Positions 25,262-28,458 of a stretch of 64,000 bases of DNA are shown here, piece after piece. The stretch lies in assembly GCA_028287305.1 (NCBI GenBank), contig JAQBPX010000015.1, forward strand, positions 124,001 through 188,000. Direction: 5' to 3'. The notes beneath the pieces are model-generated. The model did no database searches. It was not told the DNA's origin and was given only the letters and a program-made list of their open reading frames with translations. Both the position numbers and the translations under genes were made by a program. Source of the stretch: Gemmatimonadota bacterium (GTDB taxonomy: Bacteria > Gemmatimonadota > Gemmatimonadetes > Gemmatimonadales > Gemmatimonadaceae). Position 1 is the stretch's first letter. Every line of letters begins with the position of its first letter.

Positions 25262-25999
25262 ATGCGCAAGCTCCTCGTCATTGCAGTCGCGCTCGTCGCG
25301 GCTTGCTCCAGCGACACCGTCACCTCCGCCGATGCTTCCGCGGCCGACGACCTCACCCTCGCGGCGAACGTCGCGTCGGCCAGCGGCGCCATCATCACCA
25401 CTGGCGACGCACAGTCGCTACTCAGGCTGGTCGCCGCGCTGCCGGATGGCGTGAAGCTCACGCGCGAGCAGCAGGCGAAGGTCAACGCGCTGCTCGACGC
25501 GCACGCCGCGGCCACGCAGGCGGATCGCGCAGCCGTGTCCGCGGGCGAGAAGGCGGCGCGTGACGCGGCACAGGCCGGCAAGGGAAAGGGCGACATCCAG
25601 CGGATCCTCGACGCCACCGACGTGATCCGGAAGCGGATTGCGGGAGCGGAGGTGACCCTCGTGGCGAACATCACGTCGCTGCTCACCGAAGCCCAGCGGA
25701 AGTGGGTGCGAGAGCACTCGCCGGCGAAGTGCGTCGCCGTGCCCACGCTCTCGGCGGACCAGCAGCAGCAGGTCGCGGCGTTGAATGCGGCGTTCGAGGA
25801 TGCGAACCGGGCAGACCTCACCGCCATTCATGATGCGAACGAGGCCGCGACGGCCGCGAAGCGCGCGGGGAAGAGCGAGGCCGACGTGCGCGCCATCCTC
25901 GACGCCGTGCAGCCGGCGGTCCGGCGCGTGAACGCGGCGCGCGAGGCGCTCGCGAAGGCCGTCTCGGCAATTGTTCCGAAACCGGCCGAATGCAAATAG
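25262..25999 (+). CDS. Lipoprotein with two Spy/CpxP-like repeats
   Basis: 245 residues from the ATG that gives lipobox VALVAAC (Cys15); the longer open frame has no signal. The mature part is highly helical and contains two copies of one domain. Copy 1 runs LTREQQAKVNALLDAHAAAT ... GDIQRILDATDVIRKRIAGA. Copy 2 runs LSADQQQQVAALNAAFEDAN ... ADVRAILDAVQPAVRRVNAA. The LTxxQ-like opening recalls Spy/CpxP periplasmic chaperones. It faces the potassium operon across the tandem regulator box, so envelope or osmotic stress is a reasonable guess. A Cys in SPAKCVAVP and another at the end could pair. Confidence 0.7.
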   Translation: MRKLLVIAVALVAACSSDTVTSADASAADDLTLAANVASASGAIITTGDAQSLLRLVAALPDGVKLTREQQAKVNALLDAHAAATQADRAAVSAGEKAARDAAQAGKGKGDIQRILDATDVIRKRIAGAEVTLVANITSLLTEAQRKWVREHSPAKCVAVPTLSADQQQQVAALNAAFEDANRADLTAIHDANEAATAAKRAGKSEADVRAILDAVQPAVRRVNAAREALAKAVSAIVPKPAECK

Positions 26000-26023
26000 T
26001 CGCATGATCGGTGCGCGCAGCGC

Positions 26024-26052
26024 TTGACGATGGCGCGCACCGCGCCTAACCT
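26024..26052 (+). promoter_or_regulatory. Sigma-70-type promoter of the riboswitch leader
   Basis: TTGACG (26024-26029) and TAACCT (26047-26052) are separated by exactly 17 bases. A start near 26059 would place the SAM-II aptamer only about ten bases into the transcript, as expected for a riboswitch leader. Confidence 0.65.
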
Positions 26053-26069
26053 GATTCGTACAACTGATT

Positions 26070-26121
26070 CCGTGGTGATTTGCCGCCCATTGCCGCCACG
26101 CTAAACAAGGTGCTAAAACGC
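26070..26121 (+). promoter_or_regulatory. SAM-II (SAM_alpha) riboswitch
   Basis: The stretch CGTGGTGATTTG (26071-26082), then GCCACG (26095-26100), TAAACAAG (26102-26109) and GCTAAAA (26112-26118) reproduces the conserved core of SAM-II RNAs. The P1 stem is CGUGG (26071-26075) with CCACG (26096-26100); the UGAUUUG loop and the 3' CAAG..GCUAAA segment form the pseudoknot that binds S-adenosylmethionine. In known cases SAM-II represses methionine/SAM genes at high SAM. Here it precedes a Cys/Met-rich leader peptide and the ATP-grasp/monooxygenase operon, the only genes on this strand downstream. Identification is by recalled consensus, not by a covariance search. Confidence 0.85.
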
Positions 26122-26129
26122 GTCCACTG

Positions 26130-26154
26130 TGCCCGGCGGCCTGTCTGCCGGGCA
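26130..26154 (+). terminator. GC-rich hairpin just after the SAM-II aptamer (candidate expression platform)
   Basis: TGCCCGGC (26130-26137) pairs perfectly with GCCGGGCA (26147-26154) around a nine-base loop. It begins about eight bases after the aptamer. Only a weak T-rich stretch (TTCGTGTTTCC) follows, so it may be a poor intrinsic terminator or a pause site. Alternatively it could just end the upstream lipoprotein transcript. Confidence 0.45.
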
Positions 26155-26192
26155 TTCGTGTTTCCGGCGGGTACCATTTCCGAAGGTCGTTC

Positions 26193-26288
26193 ATGATCGC
26201 TCGCACGCTGAATTGCATGTGCATGTGCCACCACTGGTCCCTCTGTCGAGGGCCGGGGGCGAGTTCGCGCACGCACGCGCGACGCTGA
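26193..26288 (+). CDS. Cysteine/methionine-rich leader peptide (31 aa)
   Basis: The ATG follows GAAGG by six bases. The peptide begins MIARTLNCMCMCHHWSLCRG and ends SSRTHARR, with Cys at 8, 10, 12 and 18 and Met at 9 and 11. Such a density of Cys and Met codons is what an attenuator peptide would use to sense charged tRNA-Cys and tRNA-Met. It lies between a SAM-II riboswitch and a pair of mutually exclusive hairpins, ahead of a monooxygenase of the sulfone/sulfonate type. The left arm of one hairpin overlaps codons 20-23. It is unlikely to have a function as a protein. Confidence 0.7.
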   Translation: MIARTLNCMCMCHHWSLCRGPGASSRTHARR

Positions 26289-26321
26289 TCAAGGACGACA
26301 AGTCTGCGATGCCCCCGGCCC
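26250..26321 (+). promoter_or_regulatory. Putative antiterminator stem of the leader-peptide attenuator
   Basis: GGGCCGGGGGC (26250-26260), inside the leader-peptide reading frame, is perfectly complementary to GCCCCCGGCCC (26311-26321), enclosing a 50-base loop that contains the peptide's stop codon. Bases 26317-26321 are also the 5' arm of the downstream terminator hairpin, so the two structures cannot coexist. A ribosome waiting at the Cys8-Cys12 codons would leave this 5' arm free. Confidence 0.55.
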
Positions 26322-26345
26322 CCTCCCTGTGGAGTGGGCCGTTTT
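26317..26345 (+). terminator. Candidate intrinsic terminator of the attenuator
   Basis: GGCCC (26317-26321) and CTCC (26323-26326) pair with GGAG (26331-26334) and GGGCC (26336-26340) around a CTGT loop, with one C-T mismatch. GTTTT follows at once. It lies 45 bases before the ATP-grasp start and competes with the upstream stem for 26317-26321, the arrangement of a transcription attenuator. Confidence 0.6.
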
Positions 26346-26389
26346 GCATTCCCGGCATCGCATCACCGCCATTCATGAGGAGCTCCACC

Positions 26390-27403
26390 GTGTCCGCCAC
26401 GCCCACGATCGCCATCCTGCACGAGCACCCCGACTGGTTCCGCCCGCTCTTCACCGAGCTCGAGGCTCGCGGGGTCTCGTTCGAGCGGCTCGACGCCGCA
26501 TCGCACCTCTACGACCCGTCCGAGGCACGCGTGCCCTGGTGGCTCGTGTTCAATCGCGCGAGTCCCTCCGCGTACCTGCGCGGCAATGCGCAGTCCACCT
26601 TCGCCACGCTGCACTGGCTTCGCCACCTCGAGCGGCTCGGCGTGCCCGTGGTCAACGGAAGCGACGTGTACGCCCTCGAGCTCTCGAAGGCCACGCAGCT
26701 GGACCTGCTCACCACGCTCGGCCTGCCCTTTCCGAAGTCGCGCGTGATCAATGACCCGTCGCGCGCGGTGGAAGCGGCTCGCGCGCTGCGCTACCCGGTG
26801 CTCGTGAAGGCGAACATCGGCGGCAGCGGTGCAGGCATCGTGCGCTATGAGAGCGAGGCGGCCCTGGCCACTGCCGTGCGCGAGGATCGCGTGAAGCTCG
26901 GAGTGGACGGCACCGCGCTCGTGCAGGAGAGCGCGCCACTGCGCGACGGTCACATCACGCGCGTGGAGACGCTCAACGGGAAGTTCCTCTACGCCATCAA
27001 CGTGTTCCCGGCCACGGGATCGTTCGACCTGTGCCCGGCCGATGCCTGCCAGACGGTGAGTGGCGAGGAGCTCGTGGGAACGGCGTGCGCCGTTGACGCG
27101 CCGAAGTCCGGCCTGCGCGTGGAGGGGTTCACGCCGCCGCGCGAGATCATCGAGCAGGTGGAGCGCATCGCGCGCGCCGCGAAGCTCGACGTGGGCGGCA
27201 TCGAGTACCTGGTGGATGACCGCGACGGCAGGCACTACTACTACGACATCAACGCGCTCTCGAATTTCGTGGCCGACGCGCCGCGCGTGGTGGGGTTCGA
27301 TCCCTGGCTGCCGCTGGTGGACTACCTGCAGCAGCGCGCAGGCCTCGCGGTGACCGAGGCGCGCGCGGTGGCCGGGGCTGCCGCCGCCGCGGAGGCCGCG
27401 TGA
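26390..27403 (+). CDS. ATP-grasp ligase (RimK-like)
   Basis: 337 residues from a GTG seven bases after GAGGAG; the in-frame ATG at 26375 has no ribosome-binding site. ATP-grasp features are clear: YPVLVKANIGGSGAGIVRYE (~135-155, Lys and the Gly-rich loop), ALVQESAPLRDGHITRVETL, and near the C-terminus VGGIEYLVDDRDG and the metal-binding YYYDINALSNFV (Asp and Asn). These enzymes join a carboxylate to an amine or thiol at the expense of ATP. The stop overlaps the monooxygenase ATG (TGATG). With the SAM-II/Cys-rich leader upstream, a role in sulfur metabolism is likely, but the substrate is unknown. Confidence 0.8.
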   Translation: MSATPTIAILHEHPDWFRPLFTELEARGVSFERLDAASHLYDPSEARVPWWLVFNRASPSAYLRGNAQSTFATLHWLRHLERLGVPVVNGSDVYALELSKATQLDLLTTLGLPFPKSRVINDPSRAVEAARALRYPVLVKANIGGSGAGIVRYESEAALATAVREDRVKLGVDGTALVQESAPLRDGHITRVETLNGKFLYAINVFPATGSFDLCPADACQTVSGEELVGTACAVDAPKSGLRVEGFTPPREIIEQVERIARAAKLDVGGIEYLVDDRDGRHYYYDINALSNFVADAPRVVGFDPWLPLVDYLQQRAGLAVTEARAVAGAAAAAEAA

Positions 27404-28458
27404 TGCGCTTCGGATTCTGGTTGCCCGTGTTCGGCGGCTGGCTGCGCAACGTGGACGACGAAGGGATGCAGGCGACATGGGCGTACGTGTCGCGCCTGGC
27501 GCGGCGCGCCGAGGAGGTCGGCTTCGACCTCACGCTCGTGGCGGAGCTCAACCTCAACGACATCAAGGGAGACGACGCACCGAGCCTCGACGCGTGGAGC
27601 ACCGCAGCCGCACTCGCGGCGGTGACGGAGCGCCTCGAGATCATGGTCGCGGTGCGCCCCACCTTTCATGCGCCCGCGCTGCTCGCCAAGCAGGCGGCGA
27701 ACATCGACCACATCAGCGGGGGCAGGCTCTCGCTCAACGTGGTGTCGAGCTGGTGGGCGAGTGAGGCGCGGAAGTACGGCGTGCAGTTCGACGAGCACGA
27801 CGATCGCTATGCCCGGACCGCCGAATGGCTCGAGGTGGTGCAGGGCATGTGGAGCAAGCCGCGCTTCTCGCATTCGGGCAGGTACTATTCGGTGGACGAC
27901 GCGATCCTCGAGCCGAAGCCGGTGCAGCGACCGTGGCCCACGCTCTACGCGGGGGGCGAATCACCCGCGGCCAAGGCGCTGATCGCGGCGCGATGCGACG
28001 CCTGGCTCACGCATGGCGATCCCCCCGATGTGATCGGGCGGAAGGTGGCCGACATGCGCGAGCGACGCGAGCAGCTGGCACTGCCGCCCATGCAATTCGG
28101 CGCGGCCGGCTACGCCATAGTGCGCGGCACCGAGGCGGAGGCGAAGCGCGAGCTGCAGCGCGTGATCGACCCGAATGCCAGCGCGCGCGGGTACGCGAAT
28201 TACCAGGACTGGGTGTCGAACACGCAGCTCGAGCAGCGCGTGTCGCTCGAGGACTACTCCGTGTCCAACCGCGGGCTGCGCGCCGGGCTGGTGGGGACGC
28301 CGGAGCAGGTAGCCGACCGAATCCGCGAATTCGAGGCAGCAGGAGTTGGCTTGCTGCTGCTGCAGTGCTCGCCGCAACTGGAGGAAATGGAGCGCTTTGC
28401 GTCGGAGGTCATTCCGCTGGTGCGGGGGAGCGCGCCGGTGCGCGCCTCGGCGGCTTAG
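27403..28458 (+). CDS. LLM-class flavin-dependent monooxygenase (SsuD/SfnG-like)
   Basis: 351 residues, a TIM-barrel enzyme of the bacterial-luciferase family. It starts MRFGFWLPVFGGW and contains RPTFHAPALLAKQAANIDHI, SGGRLSLNVVSSWW, FDEHDDRYARTAEWLEVVQG, LYAGGESPAAKALIAARCD and WLTHGDPPDVI, all characteristic of FMNH2-dependent alkanesulfonate (SsuD) and dimethylsulfone (SfnG) monooxygenases, which release sulfur from organic sulfonates or sulfones during sulfur limitation. That function agrees with the SAM-II and Cys/Met leader. No flavin reductase or transporter is adjacent, and the exact substrate is unknown. Confidence 0.85.
   Translation: MRFGFWLPVFGGWLRNVDDEGMQATWAYVSRLARRAEEVGFDLTLVAELNLNDIKGDDAPSLDAWSTAAALAAVTERLEIMVAVRPTFHAPALLAKQAANIDHISGGRLSLNVVSSWWASEARKYGVQFDEHDDRYARTAEWLEVVQGMWSKPRFSHSGRYYSVDDAILEPKPVQRPWPTLYAGGESPAAKALIAARCDAWLTHGDPPDVIGRKVADMRERREQLALPPMQFGAAGYAIVRGTEAEAKRELQRVIDPNASARGYANYQDWVSNTQLEQRVSLEDYSVSNRGLRAGLVGTPEQVADRIREFEAAGVGLLLLQCSPQLEEMERFASEVIPLVRGSAPVRASAA

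Follow-up and report, generated by a model that had tools for sequence, protein, structure and literature searches.

A putative two-input leader pairing a SAM-II riboswitch with a Cys/Met leader peptide before an ATP-grasp operon in Gemmatimonadota

Can one leader RNA read both the level of SAM and the charging of Cys-tRNA, and use the two readings to control a single operon? The question is raised by a locus of a Gemmatimonadota bacterium lying in a stretch of 64,000 nucleotides, here called the window, in which a SAM-II core and a short Cys/Met-rich reading frame follow one another within the same leader. The original prediction took this arrangement for a two-input sulfur switch, and among the readings considered here it is the best supported on computational grounds, as the tandem recurs at other loci, the predicted folds switch and orthologous operons carry the modules. 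We consider it quite probable, from sequence and modelling, that the leader would act as two serial transcription-termination gates that stay closed unless SAM and Cys (perhaps also Met) charging are both low.

The operon and the proposed SAM-II gate

All window features described here are on the forward (+) strand. The leader is bounded by an upstream gene ending at 25999 and by the GTG start, after AGGAG, of a gene for an ATP-grasp, RimK-like protein (26390-27403). The latter is followed by a gene for an LLM-class (luciferase-like) flavin monooxygenase (27403-28458), and both were assigned from profile matches and orthologues. The best NCBIfam match of the monooxygenase, below the cut-off of that family, is SfnG (dimethylsulfone monooxygenase). 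Orthologues of the ATP-grasp protein occur in 73 of the 201 genomes of the order and those of the monooxygenase in 71 of the 201, in most cases side by side, and the operon of ATP-grasp and SfnG-like monooxygenase may serve sulfur scavenging. The 17-spaced promoter proposed for the leader is present in the letters (TTGACG at 26024-26029, 17 nt, TAACCT at 26047-26052), but it is a weak candidate, as TAACCT matches the -10 consensus at 3/6 positions and the consensus promoter scan did not list it. Promoter matches are better in orthologous leaders, for instance that of G018 (TTGACA then TACTAT).

The SAM-II core was recovered by the Rfam covariance model SAM_alpha (RF00521), which matches 26062-26133 over its full length (43 bits, with the gathering score at 36 bits; E 2.3e-06), with the core starting at 26071. 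This is the sole gathering-level Rfam match across the 64-kb window, and the alignment to RF00521 contains the P1 stem CGTGG...CCACG, GATTTG and GCTAAAA. The predicted aptamer would bind SAM. A second SAM-II copy precedes a metH-like gene in the same genome (4.37 Mb, 39 contigs), and the window copy scores as high as this one. The idea that the window holds a further aptamer, or a T-box, was dropped, since Rfam gives neither: at 26000-26420 the other families score far below their gathering scores.

Directly after the aptamer stands the GC hairpin of the original prediction, here named hairpin 1 (26129-26155; 11 bp, tail TCGTGTTTCC, -24 kcal/mol, z -4.4). Terminator scan and folding identify it as terminator-like, with the weak U-tract TCGTGTTT, and it would form the expression platform of the riboswitch. 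The sequence GCCGCC in the SAM-II loop (26082-26087) is proposed to act as an antiterminator by pairing with GGCGGC (26135-26140) of hairpin 1. Among 114 non-redundant loci, the pairing of loop and arm is better within the own locus (permutation z 5.7, p 2e-4), and the paired sequences change between loci (GCCGCC/GGCGGC, GTCGCG/CGCGAC, GAGGC/GCCTC, AGGCA/TGCCT and GACGC/GCGTC), which on sequence comparison reads as compensatory sets. Of 158 loci, 146 have a hairpin with a T-rich tail after SAM-II, and hairpin 1 in this family usually has a short T-tract like that of the window. In many Gemmatimonadaceae SAM-II loci the tail is often TTTGTCGT or TTCGTG, a recurring sequence instead of a T run.

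With SAM present, the aptamer would bind it and tie up the GCCGCC loop, hairpin 1 would form and transcription would stop; without SAM, GCCGCC could engage the 5' arm of hairpin 1, letting polymerase pass. Hairpin 1 beats this antiterminator when folding is unconstrained, which counts against the first gate, and hence the gate must be kinetic, working only during transcription.

The leader peptide and the predicted attenuator

Downstream of hairpin 1 lies a reading frame of 31 codons with an ATG start (MIARTLNCMCMCHHWSLCRGPGASSRTHARR, beginning MIARTLNCMCMCHHWSLCRG; 26193-26288), preceded by GAAGG 7 nt before the ATG and resembling Cys/Met ORFs found at orthologues. The run Cys-Met-Cys-Met-Cys had been noticed in the original prediction; a fourth Cys codon can be added to it, so that the region 26214-26246 contains Cys codons TGC 26214, TGC 26220, TGC 26226 and TGT 26244 and Met codons at 26217 and 26223. 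CMCMC is unique: nowhere else in the six frames of the 64-kb window is there a five-residue Cys/Met run with at least three Cys. Elsewhere in the same genome, we found no convincing Cys/Met ORF before three genes for PLP enzymes of Cys/Met metabolism or before a sulfurtransferase gene.

Competing hairpins ending in GTTTT had also been predicted, and folding and pairing analysis resolve them into three structures that have sequence in common. A protector hairpin (GGTCCCTC-TGTC-GAGGGCC, with a 1:2 stem) occupies 26236-26254. The 5' arm of an antiterminator (GGGCCGGGGGCG, 26250-26261) lies within the ORF, immediately 3' of the fourth Cys codon, and forms 12 bp with the 3' arm (TGCCCCCGGCCC, 26310-26321). 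As the 3' arm shares 6 nt with terminator 2 (26316-26345; CGGCCC...GGGCCG followed by TTTT, recovered by folding and hairpin search), this helix competes with the terminator hairpin at 26316-26341. All 200 shuffles tried fold less well than the region of competing hairpins (z -3.4). The T-tract of terminator 2 is weak, consisting of four T only, and the terminator scan did not list it.

The dependence of these folds on translation was modelled, as opposed to measured, by folding only the RNA outside a fixed ribosome footprint. When the A site holds the third Cys codon, the predicted fold contains the antiterminator and terminator 2 is disrupted, while a ribosome that has reached the fourth Cys codon or the stop codon lets terminator 2 form. 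Stalling at either of the first two Cys codons leaves the protector hairpin formed and terminator 2 intact, which counts against the second gate. The third Cys codon thus seems the best-placed control codon, because only a stall there switches the fold to the antiterminator. On this model the leader has the make-up of an attenuator: an ORF with control codons, an intrinsic terminator and an antiterminator that depends on the position of the ribosome.

At this second gate, a ribosome would translate the 31-codon ORF behind the polymerase. If Cys-tRNA is short, it would stall at Cys codons and cover the protector arm, the 12-bp antiterminator would form and the operon would be transcribed; if Cys is plentiful, it would move on and cover the antiterminator arm, and terminator 2 would end transcription. 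If events run in this order, the physiological logic would be that of two gates in series, and expression would therefore be expected only at low SAM together with low charged Cys-tRNA, perhaps also low Met-tRNA.

Single and tandem modules in Gemmatimonadota

SAM-II seems to be nearly universal in this order of Gemmatimonadota, as it was found in 190 of the 201 genomes, although the Rfam SAM_alpha family is titled alpha-proteobacterial. A pattern search of genomes returned 51 SAM-II loci, nearly all labelled Gemmatimonadota and many of them Gemmatimonadaceae, and together with kinship labels this assigns the window to the Gemmatimonadaceae. One locus (L160) on a contig titled Candidatus Kuenenia stuttgartiensis has a SAM-II core of the Gemmatimonadota type, possibly owing to binning contamination.

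Cys/Met ORFs were scored as at least five Cys and Met within 14 codons, at least two of them Cys. Such an ORF lies downstream, at +60 to +420, in 10 of 96 Gemmatimonadota SAM-II loci, compared with 0.36% of shuffles and 0/96 reverse strands; the 96 are the SAM-II loci with enough downstream sequence, and the score was set on that same set. A hold-out of 60 further SAM-II loci gave one clear tandem case (L214), a count that leaves out L259 (score 5). Rfam confirms SAM_alpha in all ten tandem loci besides the window.

At least four kinds of gene, predominantly sulfur genes, lie downstream of the tandem leaders, which are distributed over at least four genera (g1, g13, g21 and g33) plus lineages without genus placement. 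The first gene encodes an O-acetylhomoserine sulfhydrylase in three loci (L029, L140, L178), a sulfurtransferase in three others (L143, L149 and L173, followed in L149 by cysteine synthase), an OsmC-like protein followed by a translation-type, perhaps CysN-like, GTPase in L177 and L182, and an ATP-grasp protein in L141 and the window; the first reading frame of L214 is incomplete. The peptides before the methionine-pathway gene are rich in Met (MMCMGMRHMAMAMCRCSCMC in L178), while those before the OsmC/GTPase loci are rich in Cys (ACACMCP..CCC in L177). A comparison of the two species G076 and G209 shows identity at 16 of 21 Cys/Met positions and at 41 of 91 other positions. Moreover, sulfurtransferase and OsmC genes of other genera are preceded by Cys/Met ORFs that are not accompanied by SAM-II.

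All 11 tandem leaders have one hairpin with a T-rich tail after SAM-II and a second one after the ORF, and in 9 of the 11 a helix of 9-12 bp connects the ORF with an arm of terminator 2. The helix is specific to its own leader (mean score 26.8 for self pairs against 21.2 for mispaired leaders; permutation p 5e-5, 11 leaders), a p value that is inexact because the leaders are partly related, L143 and L173 having the same arm sequence. In another locus (L168, 4150-4540), SAM-II and hairpin 1 are followed by a strong second hairpin, GGTGGCACCG...CCGGTGCC with eight T, for which we found neither a Cys/Met ORF nor a fitting Rfam family. A T-box was suspected there from GGTGGCACC before the terminator, and was dropped as Rfam gives no support. 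In L048 (genome G019) the leader is unusually long, the gene lying about 370 bases beyond SAM-II, and both loci possibly have another kind of second gate.

Comparison of the upstream DNA of 72 ATP-grasp orthologues, including the window, shows a Cys/Met ORF within about 420 bases of the gene in 19/72 leaders and in 0/76 reverse strands (for example MTRAQTMCCCCMCLMCQPTPEGLGVHDM, MTSAQTTCMCCCSCMCCLMCQPASEALGDRM and MHRNAAPTLMCTMCMCQLMWHQPQEMGGVQH). SAM-II was found by pattern in 13 of the 72, and 7 of those 13 reach the Rfam gathering score. Relatives thus carry SAM-II only, the Cys/Met ORF only or both, and usually one element; within the 72 leaders only the window has both, and L141, outside that set, likewise carries both. 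Conservation among relatives had been proposed as a check on the original prediction, and at family level it was borne out in part: in these operons a terminator accompanies either a Cys/Met leader ORF or SAM-II, and one follows the ORF in 16/17 ORF-only leaders, but the antiterminator pairing of the latter is only suggestive (p 0.07).

The Cys/Met ORFs of four leaders (L043, L060, L094 and L097) start a few bases past a good -10 box, and in the G018 leader about 7 nt separate TACTAT from the ATG. ORFs in such leaders may be leaderless, because the ATG is so near the -10 box; Canestrari 2020, a paper on actinobacterial Cys leader peptides that is cited in PMC13236596, reportedly calls its mycobacterial polycysteine ORFs leaderless in the title. 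In genus g35 (L122-L130), Cys-rich ORFs such as MLMCCHVCRSMCCLESGRSGASVSG are located 600-700 bases upstream of ATP-grasp (about -690 to -610), and perhaps head a longer operon.

Alternative readings, known leaders and implications

The SAM-II switch might work alone, with the Cys/Met ORF as a chance frame and the second hairpin as incidental. The whole window peptide indeed fails to align with other leader peptides, and terminator 2 has the weak, unlisted T-tract described above. However, orthologous leaders have Cys/Met ORFs at the same place and not on their reverse strands, tandem cases exceed those in shuffles, the antiterminator is specific to its own leader and the CMCMC-type run is unique in the window. 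We therefore rejected a chance ORF on shuffles, reverse strands and orthologues, as the comparison across loci makes chance co-occurrence with SAM-II unlikely, and regard this reading as very improbable. Conversely, the peptide gate could be real and SAM-II with hairpin 1 a decaying remnant, as might be suggested by the single element of most orthologous leaders and by the imperfect T-tract of hairpin 1. Such decay appears very unlikely, since the aptamer scores as high as the metH-like copy, its complementarity to hairpin 1 is intact and short T-tracts are usual for this hairpin in the family.

The ORF could also act by another route that lacks an intrinsic terminator switch, namely Rho-dependent or translational attenuation, or a peptide working in trans. 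Leader ORFs of mycobacterial cys operons without conserved terminator hairpins (PMC1262725) would fit this explanation, as would the trans action of peTrpL reported in PMC7298713. Yet a hairpin and T residues follow the ORF in 11/11 tandem and 16/17 ORF-only leaders, and an alternative antiterminator pairing is present, so that we give this route little credence. Two serial gates hence remain the preferred reading.

Each part of the leader has known counterparts. Control by SAM-II and a terminator has been ascribed to the metZ gene of Sinorhizobium meliloti (PMC9373788), and its leader shares with the window the aptamer family and a terminator hairpin directly after it (PMC9373788; RF00521), but belongs to another phylum, and the window leader adds a second, translation-dependent gate. 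Similarly, uORFC-8-2, a ribosome-mediated Cys attenuator before cysS in Rhodobacterales, has a short Cys-codon ORF, stems and a terminator with a U run (PMC8632094), whereas no riboswitch is described in its leader, and the window mixes Met with Cys codons and precedes other genes. Actinobacteria, including mycobacteria, have Cys leader peptides before cys operons without clear terminators (PMC1262725); these resemble the window in their Cys-codon runs upstream of sulfur genes, and differ in having neither conserved intrinsic terminators nor a riboswitch.

Combined leaders are also on record. A survey of tandem riboswitches lists T-box(Met) with SAM-I (2 cases), SAM-II/SAM-V, SAM-II/SAM-II and SAM-I/AdoCbl (PMC9481103). 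The T-box(Met) and SAM-I pair likewise reads amino-acid charging and SAM in one leader, but with two ligand-binding RNAs, whereas the window would use a translating ribosome and SAM-II. SAM-II/SAM-V and SAM-II/SAM-II also place SAM-II with a terminator before a second regulatory element, but both of their elements sense SAM. The mgtA leader joins a Mg2+ riboswitch to the mgtL peptide (PMC6386406); there, Rho termination is tied to mgtL translation, in contrast to the two separate serial hairpins of the window.

The tandem riboswitch survey has no mention of uORFs or attenuation (PMC9481103), nor has a 2025 survey of contiguous riboswitches any of leader peptides or Gemmatimonadota (PMC12452182). 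In the literature searched, which excludes most subscription journals, we found no account of a leader peptide combined with SAM-II, and no paper that brings together gemmatimonad, SAM-II and riboswitch. The doubt in the original prediction, whether such a case had been described, is thus answered in part within that literature, although the T-box(Met) and SAM-I leaders follow the same logic (PMC9481103). The parts are each known, and the pairing of SAM-II with a leader peptide appears to be new.

We think it likely that sulfur-operon leaders of Gemmatimonadota draw on two modules that are interchangeable, the SAM-II terminator and the Cys/Met peptide attenuator, which occur singly or serially at one orthologous operon and in series would make a two-input NOR-type switch, with RNA sensing a metabolite and the ribosome sensing amino-acid supply. 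Most two-input RNA leaders in the literature reached pair a riboswitch with a T-box or consist of two RNAs that each bind a ligand. In the window leader, a riboswitch for a small molecule would work in series with a translating ribosome, a sensor in its own right, so that SAM and aminoacyl-tRNA report on one pathway. For the uncharacterised operon of ATP-grasp and monooxygenase, such a leader suggests involvement in sulfur supply. Because the tandem recurs across lineages and operons while relatives carry single halves, these leaders may offer a natural test bed for the gain, loss and stacking of leader modules.
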